In this document: one piece after another, positions 1-43,840 of the stretch | Layout: every line of letters begins with the position of its first letter | How positions within the stretch are numbered: the first letter of the stretch is position 1 | DNA from: a virus | IMG/VR virus record: IMGVR_UViG_3300036766_000686 | Location: 1-64,000 of that record | Strand: one strand, 5' to 3' | Length of the DNA stretch: 64,000 bases | Notes under the pieces: generated by a model | What the model was told of the DNA's origin: nothing | Database searches by the model: none | The model's input: the letters and a program-made list of their open reading frames with translations, nothing else | Program-made: the position numbers and the translations under genes

Positions 1-253
1 TATCTTGACGCTCATCACCGCCACGTAACGCTCGGGTAAGAAAGCGATGATCCACGGTGACTAAAGCATCAACGCTCCTGCTCTTAAGGTGAAGCATAGA
101 CCCACGGTAGCGTTTTATTAATCGACTTAAAGGACGCTGGAATTCCAACACCCATTTTTTTTGATTGAAGGTCGCTAAACGTTGTTTCGAGGTAATCTCC
201 GAGGCAATCTTCCAACCCGAATCAGTTAAAAATTCGGTGTCCTCCGAGTGACA
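1..253 (-). other. Intein in terL (N-terminal part only)
   Basis: Begins at the Cys codon 251-253 of the terminase frame. Block A (C, then DTEFLTDSGWKIA) and block B (ALVTVDHRFLTR, with the conserved His) are visible before the window ends. These are the standard N-terminal splicing motifs of Hint-type inteins. Whether it carries an endonuclease cannot be seen. The phage has at least one more intein, in dnaE. Confidence 0.85.
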
Positions 254-1144
254 GTTGAAAATAATCAACCCCATTGTCGAACGCTTCTCCTTGAAAAAAT
301 CCGGGGGAAAGCGCTCAGGGTCAGGCGATTGCTCGTCCTCGTTCAACGCGCGGATCACCAGCGTCCTGTCCTTCAACTCGTGTTCCATCAGGTGTCCGTA
401 TAGATCGTCGAAATGATACCTCACGCCCATCCTGTGATGCTCCCCAACGTGAGGACGCTTGGCATCGGGGGGGTGGAGCAACGGAGTATAAGTCTTGTAA
501 TACCACACCCGCGCTTTGTCCCGCATGTGGGTAGTTTCCGAGTTATCCTGCGTCACGAGGTCGTCGGTCAGCAGAATATCAAAGTGCCTAGACGTGATTG
601 CCGAATCCACACCCGTACAAGTAATGGTGGACTCTTTACAACGACGGGTCTTGCCTACCACGTCGATTTCGACCGTATCCCATTTCGCCACAAGTCGGGG
701 GTCGTAGAACTTGCCGAACACTTCAATTAATCGCTCGTTGTTTTCAAGGTGCGATTTAATCTCCCTCAAGATACCCGTCGAGGCAAGTTTGCTTTCCGAG
801 CCGATAAGTATTGTATAATTGCGATCTTTGCATAGGTAATGGATCGCCTTCGACGTTACTCCGATTGTAGATTTCCCGGCCCCTCGAAATGCCAAAATCA
901 AGCTGTCCTTGTGTTGAAATTGCCATTGCATGATGGCGAGATGGAACGGCTTGACGTCAAAACCCAGAATGGCGCCCGCGAGTATATCGATCCGATCGTT
1001 TTCCACGATCTGCTTCCGAAGCCACTCGTTGGACGCGTTGCGGTACTGCTCATAGACTTGCACAAGTTCATGCCGCTCCATGCGGTCAATCTTGTGCGCC
1101 GCTCCTTGTATGAGCGGGATGACATTCGAGGGGACGGGGGACAT
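1..1144 (-). CDS. terL: Terminase large subunit (N-terminal part), interrupted by an intein
   Basis: Packaging ATPase that pumps DNA into the prohead. The frame is open from ATG 1144 and runs off the left window edge. An in-frame TAA at 1154-1156 makes this the first possible ATG; no good SD is visible. Walker A AFRGAGKST is at about residues 85-93 and Walker B LLTDD at about 191-195. At residue 298 (codon 251-253), after IIFN, the extein switches into an intein: Cys1, then a block A typical of inteins (DTEFLTDSGWK) and a block B (VTVDHRF). The insertion point fits the conserved region after the ATPase centre where terminases usually read F-x-Q-Y. The C-extein and nuclease domain lie outside the window. 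Confidence 0.85.
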   Translation of the reverse strand, partial: MSPVPSNVIPLIQGAAHKIDRMERHELVQVYEQYRNASNEWLRKQIVENDRIDILAGAILGFDVKPFHLAIMQWQFQHKDSLILAFRGAGKSTIGVTSKAIHYLCKDRNYTILIGSESKLASTGILREIKSHLENNERLIEVFGKFYDPRLVAKWDTVEIDVVGKTRRCKESTITCTGVDSAITSRHFDILLTDDLVTQDNSETTHMRDKARVWYYKTYTPLLHPPDAKRPHVGEHHRMGVRYHFDDLYGHLMEHELKDRTLVIRALNEDEQSPDPERFPPDFFKEKRSTMGLIIFNCHSEDTEFLTDSGWKIASEITSKQRLATFNQKKWVLEFQRPLSRLIKRYRGSMLHLKSRSVDALVTVDHRFLTRALRGGDERQD

Positions 1145-1153
1145 AGGGAATCG

Positions 1154-2101
1154 TTAAGTGGTGACGTCGGCAACAACGTCGTCGGCAACGGATTCACTGT
1201 CCGAGACTTGAGGAGCGTACTCTGCTTCGGTAGCAACCTCGTCAACGATTGCACCATCATCCGAAACTTGCGGAGCGTATTCTGCTTCGGTAGCGACGCC
1301 ATCGACGACCACACCGGCATCCGATACGCTCGGCGCGTACTCTGCCTCGGTCACTACAGCGTCCGCCGCTGCCATGCTATCCACCGATACGTCACGCAGG
1401 AACGCAATCTCGCGGGCAACCGAATCTCCCACCGTTGCTGAATCGCTCCCCGCTCCTCGAACGTAATCGGCAGCGGATTTCATTTCGTCTCCCACCGTTG
1501 CCGAATCGCTCCCAATGCTTCGAATGTAGTCCGCGGCGGATCGCAATACATCGCCCACCGTCACCGTATCGCGTGCCGTTGCGAAGTGCTCTCCATGCGT
1601 AGCCGCGTCCGTCGTCCCGATTGAATCGGCAATCGTTGCGCCAATCAGGTGCTCCGATTCTGCGCTACGGGAGTCCTCAACGAACTGCCGCGATCCCGCG
1701 ATCAAGATTTCCACTTCGTCGCCCGCCTTGAGTCCTCCGATCACGGAAACCCAGATCGTCGCCTCTGCCACGTTGCACGCGAACACATACGACGCCCCCG
1801 AGCCCACTCCCGAGCGAATAAGGCGAGGGGCGAAGGGAGCGAAACGTAACGCGACCGGATCCCACGACAGGACCTCAATCATCGGGTCGGGGGTGCCTGC
1901 TTTCGGCACCACGAGGATCAAAGCGACATTGTACCCCACCATGTTCATCCCCGCCGTGCGCCTCCCCTCGGGAAGCGAATCCAAAGCGCTTACCGCACGA
2001 TGCCGCGCGAACTTGGGAGAAGGAGTAGCTTGCGAAGTTGGAACATCGGTTGGGTCCAACAGATTAATTTCACTCAAAGGAACGTAAGGATCAAAACCCA
2101 T
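1154..2101 (-). CDS. Structural protein with C-terminal 20-residue VSD repeats
   Basis: 315 aa. Start set at ATG 2101 because AGGAGG lies 5 nt upstream; an upstream in-frame ATG has no SD. The N-terminal about 150 residues look like a compact beta-rich domain. The C-terminal half is repetitive: DSATVGD-type units followed by 20-residue units beginning VSDxxxxxD and containing ATEAEYAP. The same VSDxxxxxD, 20-residue register occurs in the giant tail protein at 45.8-50.8 kb, so the repeats may be a shared adhesin or assembly module. Position next to terL suggests a virion or decoration protein. I do not recognise the family. Confidence 0.7.
   Translation of the reverse strand: MGFDPYVPLSEINLLDPTDVPTSQATPSPKFARHRAVSALDSLPEGRRTAGMNMVGYNVALILVVPKAGTPDPMIEVLSWDPVALRFAPFAPRLIRSGVGSGASYVFACNVAEATIWVSVIGGLKAGDEVEILIAGSRQFVEDSRSAESEHLIGATIADSIGTTDAATHGEHFATARDTVTVGDVLRSAADYIRSIGSDSATVGDEMKSAADYVRGAGSDSATVGDSVAREIAFLRDVSVDSMAAADAVVTEAEYAPSVSDAGVVVDGVATEAEYAPQVSDDGAIVDEVATEAEYAPQVSDSESVADDVVADVTT
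1189..1380 (-). repeat. 60 bp tandem coding repeats
   Basis: Three imperfect copies with an exact 60 bp period start near 1201, 1261 and 1321. Each encodes one 20-residue VSDxxxxxD...ATEAEYAP unit. Confidence 0.8.
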
Positions 2102-2123
2102 AGTGACCTCCTGTTGCAAAGAG

Positions 2124-2154
2124 GCGGGGTGGAGCGCCAGATACCCCACCCCGC
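2124..2154 (-). terminator. Hairpin between structural genes (attenuator-like)
   Basis: Perfect 9 bp arms GCGGGGTGG (2124-2132) and CCACCCCGC (2146-2154) lie between the stop at 2175 and the SD of the gene starting at 2101. Read on the minus strand the stem is followed by only a weak T run (CTCTTTG). It may partly terminate transcription or protect an mRNA end. Confidence 0.5.
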
Positions 2155-2552: not shown

Positions 2553-3227
2553 TCAGGCTGGAGCGCCATCGTTATTTCCACTACTGTTTTCAGGCGGGAC
2601 CGTCCCGCCAGAAATTTCCCTGCCTCTCGTCCTCGATCTCCCCCCGTGAACGGGGGAGCGGGTGTGAGGCTTTACCTTGTCGTTGATTACTCGCTCGGCG
2701 GGGAGGGAGCGATAGATCGGGCCGGGAGTTAAGTCGAGTAACTTCTGGTCCCCGAACCGCATCAGGTGGTCGTTAAATATGTTTATCTCGTTGATAATGT
2801 ACTGGTGCAACTCCTGTCGCCCCATGCTGCGGAACGCCTCGCCGGGCACAAACCCGGTCCCCGTGTGCGAACGCTCGACAACACCCAACTCCACACCCGT
2901 TTTCAAGATATCACGAATAATCTCCGACCTCGCGCGTATCGCCGCAACGTAGGTCGGGGAGTTGGGGACTACGTTCTCCAGCACCTTATCGAGTTTATCA
3001 AGCCCTTGCCTTTGCTCGATAACGTAACGGACGTAAGTTTGCTCAACGGGACGGGTCTTGACGAGGTCGGCATCGTGTTGGATGAGCTTTTCTTTCAGTT
3101 GCTCCACGTCCTCGATCGGGAGCCCGTAGGTAGAACTCAATGCCTCGTCGTCCAAGCCTTTTATCAAGCCCGAACGGACCTTTGCCAGTAACTCCTTCGA
3201 CGCGTTCCCGTTGAGTTTCGTTCCCAT
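2553..3227 (-). CDS. Putative terminase small subunit
   Basis: 224 aa. Residues about 10-50 form a helix-turn-helix-like segment (GLDDEALSSTYGLPIEDVEQL). A long helical, coiled-coil-prone region follows, then a basic, Gly/Ser-rich, probably disordered tail. This layout (DNA-binding HTH, oligomerising helices, flexible tail) and the location two genes before terL suggest the small terminase subunit that recognises phage DNA. No direct motif proves it; another DNA-binding structural protein is possible. Confidence 0.4.
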   Translation of the reverse strand: MGTKLNGNASKELLAKVRSGLIKGLDDEALSSTYGLPIEDVEQLKEKLIQHDADLVKTRPVEQTYVRYVIEQRQGLDKLDKVLENVVPNSPTYVAAIRARSEIIRDILKTGVELGVVERSHTGTGFVPGEAFRSMGRQELHQYIINEINIFNDHLMRFGDQKLLDLTPGPIYRSLPAERVINDKVKPHTRSPVHGGRSRTRGREISGGTVPPENSSGNNDGAPA

Positions 3228-3272
3228 CGAAACCCATCATACCACGCCCAAGCGTTCGCTGTCCACGACAGA

Positions 3273-4085
3273 CTAGAACCGGGTCATGAAAGGGATACGC
3301 TGCCCGAATTTCCCGCCTTCCAGACCTGGGTTTTGTTTATACCCGCTCTTTTCCAGTGTCGCATGGATGTGGGGAAACACTTCGTCAAGCGGGCTTTCCA
3401 GCGCTCCCTCTCTATTCAACACCTCAAGCAACGAATAGGTGAACGCTCCATTGGGTCGATGATTGAATAGGGCGTCGGATGCGGTTTGGTTCGATTGACA
3501 AGCGGACAGCAGGGTCACGTTAAGTTGCCCGCCGGGGACGAGCTTGCGCACGTTGACCTTTTCTTTCACCGCCACACCATTACGCCATGCGATATCGAGC
3601 GGAGGGTGTAGGGCACGCGGACGACGTACGGAAGGAGGGTCGAAGCCTCTCGACAGATCGCCCGAGTGGCACGAGTCCGAAATCCAAAGCGCTTCCACGC
3701 AAGGAGGAACAGAGGAAAAAATATCGTTGAGGTGATTATCTCGAATAAACAACCCCTCTTTCCATTGAAAGTCCACGGGGCAAATAATCTCGTCCAGCCC
3801 ATCGACCTCAGCCGATACTGGGTCGCGGGAAGCGATCTGGGCTCCGTGTCCCGAGTAGTGAAAAAGTATCCTATCCCCTGCTTTGATTCCATCGACTAGC
3901 CAGAGCAAACGGTCAAGAATCGCGCGTGTCGTTGCGCGGGCGTCGGTCAGAAGGCGAATCTCGCGCAACTCGAACCCGCAACGTCCTACCAAAAAGTTTG
4001 CCATATCCTGTACGTCGTTCACGCAACCAGCGAGCGGAGCGCCGGGATATTCGTTGATGCCTACCAGCAAGGCTCGGCTTTTCAT
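3273..4085 (-). CDS. Caspase-fold peptidase (metacaspase/orthocaspase-like, peptidase C14)
   Basis: 270 aa. Start at ATG 4085, which overlaps the holin stop (TGATG) and has AGGAG 9 nt upstream. The fold order is typical: RALLVGINEYP, the small loop AGCVNDVQDM, the catalytic His in HYSGHG (His80) and the catalytic Cys in DSCHSGD (Cys139), then a p10-like half with LLSACQSNQTA and GAFTYSLLEVL. Both dyad residues are present, so it should be active, probably cleaving after basic residues like other prokaryotic metacaspases (family knowledge). No signal peptide, so cytoplasmic. Translational coupling to a holin suggests a role in lysis or host killing; processing of a virion protein is an alternative. 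Confidence 0.85.
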   Translation of the reverse strand: MKSRALLVGINEYPGAPLAGCVNDVQDMANFLVGRCGFELREIRLLTDARATTRAILDRLLWLVDGIKAGDRILFHYSGHGAQIASRDPVSAEVDGLDEIICPVDFQWKEGLFIRDNHLNDIFSSVPPCVEALWISDSCHSGDLSRGFDPPSVRRPRALHPPLDIAWRNGVAVKEKVNVRKLVPGGQLNVTLLSACQSNQTASDALFNHRPNGAFTYSLLEVLNREGALESPLDEVFPHIHATLEKSGYKQNPGLEGGKFGQRIPFMTRF

Positions 4086-4489
4086 CAAACTATTCTCCTC
4101 ATGCTAAATACCTGAGATTCAATACGTGATTCGATCACGCTCTTAGCCGCTCCCTCGCTCCCCGTGATTTTCACCAGTTGACGAAACTCGGGACCGAGTT
4201 GAGATACGACCTTATCGATCGCCTTCGTCTTGACCTCGTTGCTTTGTTCCTCAGTCAACTTTCCCGCCGCCCCCCGTTTCACTTTGAGATTCCACACAAG
4301 TGTCTGTTCCATCTCCTCGACAACGTTTGGAATCGTCTCGCATAGCAAGGTCAAGACGTGTTGAAGGCGGGAGTCCTTAACTTTTTCGTCGATCCACTGC
4401 GACGCCTTCCAGCACGCCCACGACACAAGCGCAAGCAAGACGGGGGTAAAAGCGTCAATCAACTTCGCCCACAGTTCGTAACGTTCCAT
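4085..4489 (-). CDS. Phage holin, LLH/superfamily 6 type
   Basis: 134 aa, with AGGAGG 5 nt before the ATG. One N-terminal membrane segment (about residues 9-28, FTPVLLALVSWACWKASQW) is followed by amphipathic helices. The pattern VVEEMEQT...LTEEQSNEVKTKAIDKV is close to what I know of Pfam Holin_LLH proteins. It would form the membrane hole that times lysis. It is the first gene after a terminator and is coupled to the caspase gene. The endolysin and spanin-like genes are far away at 41-44 kb. Confidence 0.7.
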   Translation of the reverse strand: MERYELWAKLIDAFTPVLLALVSWACWKASQWIDEKVKDSRLQHVLTLLCETIPNVVEEMEQTLVWNLKVKRGAAGKLTEEQSNEVKTKAIDKVVSQLGPEFRQLVKITGSEGAAKSVIESRIESQVFSMRRIV

Positions 4490-4549: not shown

Positions 4550-4584
4550 CCATAAAGAAACCCTCCCCAAGCGGTGGAGAGGGT
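4550..4584 (-). terminator. Rho-independent terminator upstream of the holin operon
   Basis: On the minus strand a GC-rich stem (ACCCTC with GAGGGT, extended by GG/CC) closes a loop around ACCGCTT and is followed by TTTCTTTA. It would end transcripts from the right before the holin-caspase pair and leaves that pair needing its own promoter. I saw no clear promoter. Confidence 0.6.
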
Positions 4585-4627
4585 CGCTCTTGTAGGAGTC
4601 GTTGCACTTGTAAAGCGAGAAGGTGCG

Positions 4628-4813: not shown

Positions 4814-5305
4814 TTACAGTCCGATCACTGTCAAGAGTTGCAACAACTTGGGATCGAAGGACTCGGGCCGCGGGGGCGAGACGTACTCTCCGTCCTGCTC
4901 ACGCTTGACGATATTCAACGCCGCCACGCGCAACTCGCTTCCCTCACTGTCCACCAACTTTCCCGCGCCGATCGCCGCGCACTCAAACCCGAGCTTGCGC
5001 AACTGCACCGCGCGCCGCTTCGCCCCGTAGGACTTTGACGTGTAAAGTTCCTGCACCGAACGCGCGAACTCCGCACGTGAAATACACACGGGGGGGTGTG
5101 ACTTGCGAGCGAAGGAATCGAGGCGTTCGTTCTGGTTGAGAACCAACCCCTTGAGGTACGCGATTTCGCATTCCGACGAACAGAAATCCGAACCTCGCCC
5201 CCGAGGAACTTCCTCTTTGCACTGTTTACAAAGTTTAATCTCTTCCTTCTCCTTGCTGTTCGTTGTCGTTGTTTCGGTTTGTTGTTTGGGTTTTCGTGTG
5301 CTCAT
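4814..5305 (-). CDS. Small zinc-binding protein, unknown function
   Basis: 163 aa, ATG with AGGAGG 7 nt upstream. A Thr/Gln/Lys-rich head precedes a treble-clef-like CKQC...CSSEC motif (about residues 26-46). A helical basic region and an acidic C-terminus follow. Shares the A-rich leader common to many genes here and lies just downstream of the serine recombinase. No family recognised. Confidence 0.6.
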   Translation of the reverse strand: MSTRKPKQQTETTTTNSKEKEEIKLCKQCKEEVPRGRGSDFCSSECEIAYLKGLVLNQNERLDSFARKSHPPVCISRAEFARSVQELYTSKSYGAKRRAVQLRKLGFECAAIGAGKLVDSEGSELRVAALNIVKREQDGEYVSPPRPESFDPKLLQLLTVIGL

Positions 5306-5366: not shown

Positions 5367-6038
5367 TTATCGAAGGATCACGGCAACTTGAAAGGCGCCC
5401 CATAGTGAACCTTTTCGCGTCAAGAACCCGCGCCGCGCGAGTTCCCTTCCGATCTCCCTCAACGAACGTCCTTTATTCCTCAGTTCGATAGCGATCGCCT
5501 TAATGCGTTGCTCTCGTGTCTCGGGAACGAGCTTGCGGGACTTCGGGTCAATCGCGTACCCGTACCTCACATGCCCGCCCGTGTACTCTCCTTGCTCCCG
5601 CTTGTATCGAGCAACTCGCGCCGTGTTTTCGGAAATGTTCTCCCGTTGCCACTGCGCCACGCTGCCCAGAATGTTCAACACGAGCCTGCCTCCTGCTGTC
5701 CTCGTGTCGATCTGCTCCGCGACCGATAGCAGTTGCGCTCCTCCCTCTCCAAAGTATTCGTCTAGCAAGTCGCCCAAGTCCTTGACCGACCTCGTAAGAC
5801 GATCAAGCGCAGAAACTACGAGCGCCTGCGCTTCGCCTCGCTCCAGCACCATCAACGCCGCCTGCACCCCGTCCCGTTTCAACGTCTTAGCGCTCACGCC
5901 TTTGTCCTCAAGGATCATCACGAGTTCCAACCCGTACAGTTCCGCGTACCTCTTGATCCTATCGCGTTGAGCGTCAAGGCTCAGCCCCTTGTCGGCTTGA
6001 TCCTCGGTGCTTACCCTCACGTACCCTACCGCCTTCAT
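5367..6038 (-). CDS. Small serine recombinase (resolvase/invertase family)
   Basis: 223 aa. ATG 6038 chosen because the conserved N-terminus starts MKAVGYVRVSTEDQ and the ATG overlaps the previous stop (ATGA). The catalytic Ser is in YVRVST (about residue 10). VVSALDRLTRSVKDL carries the conserved Arg pair, and a helical dimer region and a C-terminal HTH (KGRSLREIGRELARRG) follow. The length fits the resolvase/invertase class, not the large serine integrases. It probably carries out resolution, inversion or integration. Two inverted 19 bp repeats at 4743 and 11622 bracket it. Confidence 0.9.
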   Translation of the reverse strand: MKAVGYVRVSTEDQADKGLSLDAQRDRIKRYAELYGLELVMILEDKGVSAKTLKRDGVQAALMVLERGEAQALVVSALDRLTRSVKDLGDLLDEYFGEGGAQLLSVAEQIDTRTAGGRLVLNILGSVAQWQRENISENTARVARYKREQGEYTGGHVRYGYAIDPKSRKLVPETREQRIKAIAIELRNKGRSLREIGRELARRGFLTRKGSLWGAFQVAVILR

Positions 6039-6256
6039 GTTCCTAACCTCTTTCCTTCTCGATTCAACACCGCGAGAATAAGTTGATGAAATACCGCGTC
6101 TCTGATTTCGTTGGTAGCGTCCGCTGGCCCGCAACAACCCACAGGCCATTGGATTTGGTATTGCAGGTTTTCTCGTATCGCGGAAAGACTCCAGTGACCC
6201 CAGAAGATACGAAAGCCCGCCTCAATCAATAGTTGTTCGATTCCTTGCCAGTTCAT
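6035..6256 (-). CDS. Small protein, unknown
   Basis: 73 aa starting MNWQGIEQLLIEAGF. Both ends are coupled by ATGA overlaps (6256 with the gene before, 6038 with the recombinase). Contains a VGCCGPAD loop and amphipathic helices. Possibly a recombinase accessory factor by position only. Confidence 0.55.
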   Translation of the reverse strand: MNWQGIEQLLIEAGFRIFWGHWSLSAIRENLQYQIQWPVGCCGPADATNEIRDAVFHQLILAVLNREGKRLGT

Positions 6257-41376: not shown

Positions 41377-41853
41377 CTATGGCGGGGCGTTTAGGGTGCG
41401 CGAGCCCAACCAAGTCACCGTTACGACCTCGTCCAACTGCTTTGCCGTTTTTCTCAATTCTTCGAGCGCTCGGTCAATACGTTTCGGGTCTGCGGACTCG
41501 ACCGCGTCTTGAGCATCCAGCCGGGCCTTGTCGAGTGCCAGCCACGCATCATTGAGCGTTGCACAGTCTGCCCGCAGTTTGCGCAACGTCACGTCCGCGT
41601 CCGCGTCCTTGTCCACTACCCCCCTCGCCTGCAGCTCCCGCTCCCTCACGTCACACGCCGCCCGCGTTGCCTCAATCGACGGGACGAGGACTGTCTGGAT
41701 TACGTGCAAGAGGGAATGGATTGTGGAGATAGAGGATGCAAACTGAGAGGGCGAGCAAGCCGCCAAAAGCCCCACGGCAAGGAAAGGTATGGCAAGCCGG
41801 GCGATCAAGCACTCGAACAGACTGGTCAGGATTTTTCTTGCTTTGTTTTGCAT
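41377..41853 (-). CDS. Lipoprotein, possible outer-membrane spanin
   Basis: 158 aa, AGGAGG before the ATG. The signal peptide has a lipobox LLAAC (Cys about 33), followed by a helical periplasmic domain. Located in the lysis cassette with an endolysin and a single-span membrane protein, so an o-spanin role is plausible. It is longer than Rz1-type spanins and not Pro-rich. Confidence 0.55.
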   Translation of the reverse strand: MQNKARKILTSLFECLIARLAIPFLAVGLLAACSPSQFASSISTIHSLLHVIQTVLVPSIEATRAACDVRERELQARGVVDKDADADVTLRKLRADCATLNDAWLALDKARLDAQDAVESADPKRIDRALEELRKTAKQLDEVVTVTWLGSRTLNAPP

Positions 41854-41883
41854 CCTCGTCCTCCTCGGTTTTCTTACACGCGG

Positions 41884-41910
41884 TAGCGGGTGCAGGAATC
41901 GAACCTGCCA
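41884..41910 (-). pseudogene. 3' fragment of a tRNA (T-arm and acceptor strand)
   Basis: Minus strand: perfect T-arm GCAGG-TTCGATT-CCTGC followed by ACCCGCT and A, a complete tRNA 3' end. A matching 5' half (AGCGGGT) is absent from the adjacent sequence. Lies 12 nt after tRNA-Met. Could be a decayed tRNA or a phage attachment core. Confidence 0.6.
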
Positions 41911-41913
41911 TCC

Positions 41914-42594
41914 TCATGAAGTTGCAGGGAGAGAAATCGAATCTCTAACCTCGTGGGTATGAGCCACGCGCGCTGCCTTTGCGCCACCCTGCACAAGTTT
42001 TTCCAACTCAATTAATCCATGATCTAGTTCCCAATGATGATTAGGACACAAAGTAACCAGATTTTCAATGGCATTCACAGCCTCAATTTTTGTTGCCCCG
42101 GAAAATTTGGCGATAGCGCGAACATGACAAATTTCTACGTGCCGATCGTACCCACAGACGAAGCACACACGCTGCCGTTTCGATCCTAAATAAATATGTC
42201 TTGCGTGGTTTTGAATGGAGGAACGCGAGGACTGATAACCTTTGCAACGATCACGATGCTCTTCCAACTTATACCCCTTTATTTTTTCACGTTGATGGCA
42301 ATCTTTGCAGGCTCGCAGCCTCAACCCTTCTGGAATAATTTTCCCGCAGCGTTTGCATTTACGAGGAGATTTATCGCGCTTGCGTTCTTTATTGGTCGTT
42401 ATCGCCGCGCAGGATCTTGAACAGTATTTCCGCTTACGCGTGTCAGCTATTTTACTTTTACCTTTTACCGAAATAGTTTTGCCGCAATTTTGGCATATCC
42501 GGGGAGAAGAATAATAGCGACTTAAAGCGGCTTGCCGACTTATTATCGCTGTCGCCCGTCCACCAAAACTTTGAGGACTAATTGGATCGTTCAT
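41914..42594 (-). CDS. HNH endonuclease with zinc ribbons (homing-type)
   Basis: 226 aa. Two zinc ribbons (CQNCGKT...YCSRSC and KCKRCGKI...ACKDC) precede a classic HNH core (CFVCGYDRHVEICHVRAI ... LVTLCPNHHWELDHG). The core ends near residue 197; the last about 25 residues are encoded by the tRNA-Met gene, so the original stop may have been lost or the gene may have inserted against the tRNA. Likely a mobile homing endonuclease within the lysis cassette. Confidence 0.8.
   Translation of the reverse strand: MNDPISPQSFGGRATAIISRQAALSRYYSSPRICQNCGKTISVKGKSKIADTRKRKYCSRSCAAITTNKERKRDKSPRKCKRCGKIIPEGLRLRACKDCHQREKIKGYKLEEHRDRCKGYQSSRSSIQNHARHIYLGSKRQRVCFVCGYDRHVEICHVRAIAKFSGATKIEAVNAIENLVTLCPNHHWELDHGLIELEKLVQGGAKAARVAHTHEVRDSISLPATS
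41922..41993 (-). tRNA. tRNA-Met (anticodon CAT)
   Basis: 72 nt cloverleaf. Acceptor TGCAGGG/CCCTGCA, D-stem GCGC/GCGC, anticodon arm CGTGG-CTCATAC-CCACG, T-arm AGAGA-TTCGATT-TCTCT, discriminator A, no encoded CCA. CAT could also be read as Ile after lysidine modification. It lies fully inside the 3' end of the HNH reading frame. Confidence 0.9.
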
Positions 42595-42604
42595 CCTCTC
42601 AGTT

Positions 42605-42663
42605 TAGCGGGTAAGCGTTACGAAATCAACAAACCTATGCGTGCCTCCAGTACACCTACCCGC
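42605..42663. repeat. tRNA-acceptor-like inverted repeat upstream of the HNH gene
   Basis: GCGGGTA (42607-42613) and TACCCGC (42657-42663) are perfect 7 bp arms. On the minus strand the first arm is followed by a D-arm-like GTGT...ACGC and a TTGTTGA loop, as in a decayed tRNA. The 8 bp TAGCGGGT at 42605-42612 also occurs at 41884-41891, so the two copies flank the HNH-tRNA segment. Confidence 0.45.
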
Positions 42664-42668
42664 AACAA

Positions 42669-43127
42669 CTACCCTCCACACGTTCGAGTGAAGCAAGGCT
42701 CCATGTTCTGCCTCAACCTCCACTCGTTTATTCTCAATATGCGATCGTATTCGGATGAGCGAGTCACGGCGTCCCGAATCGGATCCGTCACCCGGTGAGC
42801 CTCGCGGCTCGCTCGATCCTGAATTATGTCCATTCGAATTTGCTGTACCGAATCCTTAATTTCGGTAACGGCTTTTTCGTGAACGTCGAGGCGCTTCTTA
42901 ATTTCGACGTGTTCCTGAGTATTCGTGTCCTTCAACGTCTTGACCTCTTGTGGTTCGGCACCTTCGGGGAACTGAAACGCCCCGCCCGCCGCCTGCAGTA
43001 ACGCCGCTCCCCACCCGCCACCGCCCACCAATACGATAATCCCCGCAACGACGATCCACTTGATCCTTACGGTCAGCGTTGACGGGCCTATGGAGATTGG
43101 CGGATCAGTATTTCCCATGTATACCAT
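42669..43127 (-). CDS. Single-span membrane protein, possible inner-membrane spanin
   Basis: 152 aa from ATG 43127 (a GTG at 43154 is possible). One transmembrane segment (IKWIVVAGIIVLVGGGG) is followed by a coiled-coil region (EHVEIKKRLDVHEKAVTEIK). Topology and place next to the endolysin fit an i-spanin or holin-like protein. Confidence 0.5.
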   Translation of the reverse strand: MVYMGNTDPPISIGPSTLTVRIKWIVVAGIIVLVGGGGWGAALLQAAGGAFQFPEGAEPQEVKTLKDTNTQEHVEIKKRLDVHEKAVTEIKDSVQQIRMDIIQDRASREAHRVTDPIRDAVTRSSEYDRILRINEWRLRQNMEPCFTRTCGG

Positions 43128-43156
43128 CTTACCAAGTTTGTAGGTTTCTGTCACCT

Positions 43157-43840
43157 TCAAACCCCCGTCGCCCACTGAAAGTGCATGGGGTCGGGGTTGC
43201 TGTGAAACTTCGCGCCCCACGTAAATCCAGCCGCCTCGAAAATCTGCACCACACCCGGGTGAATCCTGCTCGGGTGCCCCGGAGGATTTTCGCTCCAGTT
43301 TACATCACACGCGATTGCCCACGAGTGCAGGGAAAGAGGTTTGCTCGGGTCGTTCATCTTGTGCCGCGGCGCCCACACCGCGAACTGTCGGACCTCGCTC
43401 GACAGCCCTTGCCTTTGCACCTGTTCGAACACTTCGAAAAATACGTCCGCGAGTTTCTTGTGGACGATTTCCTTGCCGACAACAGGGAGGAAAATAGCGA
43501 CCGTGTTGTCCTCACTCCACCCGTTTGTGATCTTGATCCTCCCACCCTCCGCGTTCACGTATTGAATTTGCCCAAACACGCGCGCCACGTTGTCGAGCCC
43601 ATGAGGAATCTCGACCACAGAGGCGATTGGATGCGGGACGGCAACATCTCGCGCAATCGCGCCCAACGTCACCTCGTCCACTGTCCCTGTAACAAACCTT
43701 TGCCGCTGGTACTCTCGTACCGCGCTCTCCGTGATGCGTCCATACTCTCGATCCATGCGCCCGTGATAGTACCCGAGCTTGCCCAAGTCCTCTTGTAACT
43801 TGCCGACCTCCGGCCCTTTGTCTCCAATGTGAAGTTCCAT
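43157..43840 (-). CDS. Endolysin: peptidoglycan-binding domain plus M15 peptidase
   Basis: 227 aa. Residues 1-70 match a PG_binding_1 domain (GDKGPEVGKLQEDLGKLGYY). The C-terminal half has the M15/VanY zinc motifs SLHSWAIACDVNW and PDPMHFQW. It cleaves peptide bonds in peptidoglycan, most likely as an L-Ala-D-Glu or D-Ala-D-Ala type peptidase. No signal peptide, so it needs a holin. Confidence 0.85.
   Translation of the reverse strand: MELHIGDKGPEVGKLQEDLGKLGYYHGRMDREYGRITESAVREYQRQRFVTGTVDEVTLGAIARDVAVPHPIASVVEIPHGLDNVARVFGQIQYVNAEGGRIKITNGWSEDNTVAIFLPVVGKEIVHKKLADVFFEVFEQVQRQGLSSEVRQFAVWAPRHKMNDPSKPLSLHSWAIACDVNWSENPPGHPSRIHPGVVQIFEAAGFTWGAKFHSNPDPMHFQWATGV

Follow-up and report, generated by a model that had tools for sequence, protein, structure and literature searches.

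A metacaspase gene overlapping a holin-like gene in a tailed phage, and its possible role in lysis

Why would a phage encode a caspase-fold peptidase, and why directly behind a gene that resembles a holin? The question is raised by a locus in the first 64,000 nucleotides (hereafter the window) of an IMG/VR record of 91,710 bp. The record carries terminase, portal, capsid-type and endolysin genes and is that of a tailed phage, which is possibly temperate. A preliminary description proposed a caspase with an intact catalytic dyad that starts on the stop codon of an LLH-type holin, both genes forming a unit behind a terminator. The elements concerned are:

3273..4085, minus strand: metacaspase (Peptidase C14), 270 amino acids from its ATG (PF00656, PDB sequence and fold matches, dyad)
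4085..4489, minus strand: holin-like membrane protein, 134 amino acids (PHROG 13712 and 36209, tblastn)
4559..4585, minus strand: terminator-like hairpin upstream of the pair (z = -3.7 for a 71-nt stretch)
3236..3265, minus strand: promoter-like motif in the gap that follows the caspase gene (10/12, with TG ahead of the second hexamer; by consensus match only)

The 3273-4085 product is a true metacaspase, in a true phage. Its match to PF00656 reaches 111.6 bits (cut-off 21.4; E = 6e-32) over residues 3-256, and this family is found once in the 91.7-kb record. One domain covers the whole protein, and Pfam detects no sensor domain. H80 (in YSGHG) and C139 (in DSCHSG) are both where the preliminary description had placed the dyad and are invariant in all 16 aligned phage caspases, as are G79, G81, D137, S141, G142, D24 and D95. 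Three of these, the acidic D24, D95 and D137, presumably map to a basic P1 pocket, which would be compatible with cleavage after Arg or Lys. A phmmer search against the PDB aligns the His and Cys motifs with those of solved metacaspases (best E = 1.6e-24), the matches being Metacaspase-1, -4 and -9, MCA2 and GSU0716. The p10-like C-terminal part (residues 184-256) aligns with Metacaspase-1 and -4, weakly when taken alone, and holds a SNQTxxDA...NGA block that is conserved in the 16 phage sequences. The comparison of a predicted structure with solved caspases agrees: the AlphaFold model (pLDDT 81.5, pTM 0.83) has caspase-fold proteins from plants, yeast, Candida, trypanosomes and Geobacter as its top PDB fold matches (best E = 7e-21). 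Residues 141-152 and 178-186 are modelled poorly; they belong to a basic stretch that links the Cys motif to the C-terminal part. The phage caspase thus has the fold, the His/Cys dyad motifs and the order of p20 followed by a p10-like part in common with AtMCA4, AtMCA9, Yca1, TbMCA2 and GSU0716. Identity to the solved metacaspases in the fold matches is about 25% and a prodomain is absent; unlike them, this caspase is phage-borne and overlaps a holin-like gene.

The 134-amino-acid protein is a probable holin, judged from its profile matches. PHROG 13712, annotated as holin, matches residues 9-127 (E = 1e-6), a second holin profile (PHROG 36209) matches at 8.5e-4, and tblastn aligns the protein with a gene product of phage record PV036447.1 that is annotated as a holin (29%, E = 1e-4). 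The designation as holin is thereby supported, but the LLH type is not, as none of the Pfam holin families, LLH included, matches at E 0.1. The protein contains a single, marginal hydrophobic stretch (Kyte-Doolittle 1.54 over 19 residues), its single-sequence model is all-helical with low confidence, and its C-terminus carries the basic residues R122, R131 and R132. The junction of both genes reads TGATG, in which the holin-like TGA and the caspase ATG have one base in common, as had been described. AGGAG-type ribosome sites precede both genes. The gene downstream of the caspase begins after 45 bp; the promoter-like motif in this gap comes from a search that returned 3 sites versus 1.2 in shuffles.

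The surroundings of the pair were compared with those of terL relatives from IMG/VR. The nearest relative, L191, matches this phage at 57% for terL, 51% for the recombinase and 55% for the portal. The genes that flank the pair in the window are:

1154..2149, minus strand: another conserved gene, which separates the pair from terL (homologues in 35 loci of the terL-relative set)
2553..3227, minus strand: conserved gene that lies upstream of terL and borders the insertion on its downstream side (44 loci of the same set have a homologue)
4814..5305, minus strand: HNH-like gene that borders the insertion on its upstream side (weak matches to HNH profiles of PHROG, E = 0.0024; 35% to L191)
5367..6149, minus strand: serine recombinase/integrase (PF00239, E = 1.7e-35; phrog_95 integrase, E = 3e-58)

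In L191, the order is recombinase, HNH-like gene, terminator, homologue of 2553-3227, homologue of 1154-2149, terL and portal. Both flanks are kept, while the caspase and the holin-like gene are missing. The distance from the HNH-like gene to the 2553-3227 homologue is 234 bp in L191 versus about 1.6 kb here, with the pair inside, and a strong terminator lies within the 234-bp gap at a place matching the 4559-4585 hairpin. Since L191 keeps the flanks and the terminator but has neither gene, the two were gained or lost together, and the description of a two-gene unit behind a terminator holds. Only one of the 40 terL-relative contigs searched has a caspase (L239/L080), where the gene overlaps an amidase_3-type endolysin gene by 4 nt and also lies upstream of terL; a role as conserved core gene is rejected on this count. 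That the pair is a host-derived fragment is equally rejected, given the phage genes in the record and the synteny: it is flanked by genes that are conserved upstream of terL in related phages. The 2553-3227 gene has no Pfam or PHROG family match, and its product may, by position only, be the small terminase subunit.

The terminase gene itself appears, from its sequence matches, to cross the contig ends. Its N-terminal match lies at 533-898 and its C-terminal part at record positions 90103-91686, and a similar, though not identical, coding stretch is present at both ends (window 1-1150 and record 90103-91710). Because the gene is split over both ends with similar coding sequence, these ends adjoin, and therefore the holin-caspase pair is located just upstream of terL. 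Although classed as linear, the record comes close to being a closed genome. The segment that interrupts terL looks like an intein; the match to the 971-amino-acid terL of L192 spans the intein-like insert too. Elsewhere in the record (81786-83503), three consecutive genes resemble, by eye, those for GTP cyclohydrolase I, QueE and QueD, which may point to modification of the DNA with 7-deazaguanine.

The endolysin of this phage is found far from the pair:

43157..43840, minus strand: endolysin with a peptidoglycan-binding part and Peptidase_M15_4 (about 39 kb from the pair)

Because of this distance, the pair is not a classic holin-endolysin cassette. Holins do not strictly require an endolysin in the same cassette. 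The region 41377-43840, which includes the endolysin, is likely a second lysis region. It contains a one-TM coiled protein beside the endolysin (42669-43220) and a lipoprotein-like ORF near it (41377-41853), each of which could be a spanin or a holin; neither product has a PHROG match.

Caspases are rare in phages. A search of 50,697 phage records with four diverse caspase queries returned one relative, the unannotated caspase of LR745208.1, a 485-kb uncultured phage, which is 47% identical over its full length. In BFVD, 23 good fold matches were found, all from viruses of eukaryotes and none from a phage. These matches, caspases of giant viruses and ascovirus, are viral caspase-fold proteins like the one described here. 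As neither the phage records nor BFVD contained an annotated phage caspase, and the papers searched did not describe one, such caspases appear to be undescribed so far, and no phage caspase tied to lysis was found in the open literature, a scope that leaves subscription papers and most preprints aside. dN/dS values of 0.06-0.23 (five measurable pairs) indicate that the caspases are selected for function. The sequence closest to the window caspase is on a Sandaracinaceae contig (55-56%), with which, together with two viral sequences, it groups weakly (SH-aLRT 87). The tree mixes phage and bacterial caspases (14 label changes versus 27 in shuffles), so repeated exchange between phages and bacteria is probable. 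No holin or prophage was seen beside the caspase of the closest bacterial relatives in the loci checked by eye.

To which genes caspases are adjacent in phages was surveyed in IMG/VR by pattern scans with two alignments (A1 and A2). This resulted in 82 viral contigs with a closed caspase ORF (65 after dereplication at 60% identity), the dyads being intact in nearly all. The viral nature of several contigs is supported by terminase or portal matches; genes were called by a simple script that is unreliable in GC-rich contigs (e.g., L034, L066). The preliminary description considered a phage caspase paired with a holin unusual. The caspase is indeed rare, but a recurrent pairing is not supported: the holin family of the 134-amino-acid protein occurs in 0 of 50 other caspase-bearing contigs. 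No relative of this protein was found in viral_contigs either, and next to caspases the enrichment of small TM proteins is no more than mild; a general holin-caspase pairing is therefore not supported. The neighbours are diverse, and most caspases lie among replication, structural or unknown genes, outside lysis regions. What does recur, in a minority of phages, is a caspase beside lysis genes, mostly endolysins. An endolysin is located one or two genes from the caspase at ten loci, of which nine remain after dereplication; PHROG profiles confirm every one of the ten. Five enzyme types are represented, with subtypes partly assigned by inspection:

Amidase_2-type endolysin: L042, L083
Amidase_3 endolysin: L080
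Lysozyme: L054
GH25 endolysin: L090
M15 or related endolysin: L023, L047, L074, L089, L098

The caspases of L042 and L047 are 90% identical and both keep lipoprotein and small TM genes beside them, while the adjacent endolysin differs (amidase versus M15). More broadly, related caspases in L042, L047, L054 and L063 keep a lipoprotein and a small TM protein, whereas the endolysin changes or is not seen. With L058 included, these loci carry a lysis cassette in which the gene order is permuted and the endolysin exchanged, the caspase, lipoprotein and small TM protein being stable.

The proximity was also tested on 16 whole contigs, with uniform placement of hydrolases on the contig as null. An initial version of the test, based on six Pfam hydrolase families, yielded P = 0.019 for distances up to 1.5 kb. 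After addition of PHROG 1493, a hydrolase lies within 1 kb of the caspase in 4/16 contigs versus 0.46 expected (P = 0.0008) and within 2 kb in 5/16 versus 0.89 expected (P = 0.0012), P values that are somewhat generous since the hydrolase families were picked partly after seeing the neighbours. The holin-caspase phage itself is one of the 11 contigs that do not fit. Counts of Pfam and PHROG neighbours at ±1 versus ±4,5 point in the same direction (top 25 families only). The preliminary description had suggested that the caspase might trigger or time host death, act on a host regulator or mature a virion protein; the survey leans towards a lysis role, and the association with lysis genes concerns a minority of phages. 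Two other neighbourhoods may be mentioned. In L030 (811-2200), the caspase directly precedes a TIR-like gene, with a ThsB_TIR match among the scanned neighbours, and a defence-type pair is possible. In L085 (5106-6335), a 385-kb contig, it is followed by a ClpS-like adaptor gene, as seen by inspection, PF02617 being among the neighbours.

We propose, with a probability of about 0.4, that the two genes form an accessory late module in which the target of the protease is lysis, the simplest case being cleavage of the holin. The module would comprise a holin-like membrane protein and a predicted catalytically competent metacaspase, translationally coupled and just upstream of the terminase genes. 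Late in infection, the caspase would act on the lysis machinery; in the simplest form, its target would be a basic site within the C-terminal portion of the adjacent holin, and cleavage there would switch the holin between an inactive and a hole-forming state, thereby setting the time of lysis. The one-base overlap, the joint absence from L191, the endolysins near caspases at ten loci and the three arginines in the holin C-terminus support this reading. Against it stand the endolysin 39 kb away, the position of most phage caspases outside lysis regions, the association of this holin family with a caspase only here and the marginal TM segment.

The logic would resemble that of bacterial gasdermins, proteins that caspase-like proteases from adjacent genes cut near the C-terminus (PMC9612521); here, an unrelated membrane protein would take the place of the gasdermin. 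Both have a small membrane-acting protein (here predicted) beside a caspase-fold protease, and lysis-type enzymes are sometimes near bacterial gasdermin systems and phage caspases alike. Unlike in those systems, neither Pfam nor PADLOC matches the 134-amino-acid protein to a gasdermin, and the pair is a phage module rather than a shown defence system. A second parallel is the orthocaspase MaOC1, whose gene adjoins a toxin-antitoxin pair and which cuts the antitoxin, the probable site being in the basic C-terminus of the latter (PMC7935541). Here too, a prokaryotic caspase homologue would be adjacent to a presumed substrate with a basic C-terminal target, but the MaOC1 gene is cellular and its substrate an antitoxin instead of a holin.

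The main rival, which we consider unlikely, is that the pair is a superinfection-exclusion or abortive-infection moron, in which another phage triggers the caspase and the small membrane protein kills. As morons usually are, the pair is inserted after a terminator, close to a recombinase, and missing from close relatives; in addition, the caspase is recognized by a PADLOC model (E = 3e-23), caspases activate pore proteins in bacterial defence (PMC9612521), and a ThsB-type TIR-like gene adjoins the L030 caspase. However, PADLOC reveals no recurrent defence genes beside phage caspases, the recurring neighbours being endolysins, and the single domain of this caspase leaves no sensor. It is rather improbable that the target of the caspase is a regulator, of the host or of the phage, with no relation to lysis, and that the neighbouring gene has a separate task. 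The many caspases among replication, structural or unknown genes and the huge-phage relative LR745208.1, which has no holin beside its caspase, are in line with this, but the start/stop overlap and the joint absence from L191 tie both genes together here. A host gene acquired recently by chance and functionless in the phage would explain the Sandaracinaceae affinity, yet it is very improbable for a full-length caspase with an intact dyad, coupled to a phage-type holin gene and with related phage caspases under purifying selection. Least probable of all is maturation of a virion protein: the caspase lies just upstream of packaging genes, but relatives with homologous portal and capsid genes lack it (one of 40 contigs has one).

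Lysis control by the caspase remains the preferred reading, and the analysis suggests that some phages control the time of host burst with a caspase. It is a tentative and, on balance, doubtful generalization that metacaspases were recruited on repeated occasions into the lysis programme of tailed phages, where they switch holins or other lysis proteins by proteolysis, with this pair as the most compact form and as a viral counterpart, assembled from separate parts, of the caspase-gasdermin logic. If phage caspases do determine when lysis occurs, holins would be subject to a new, proteolytic layer of control, and a phage branch would be added to the history of caspase-controlled membrane rupture.
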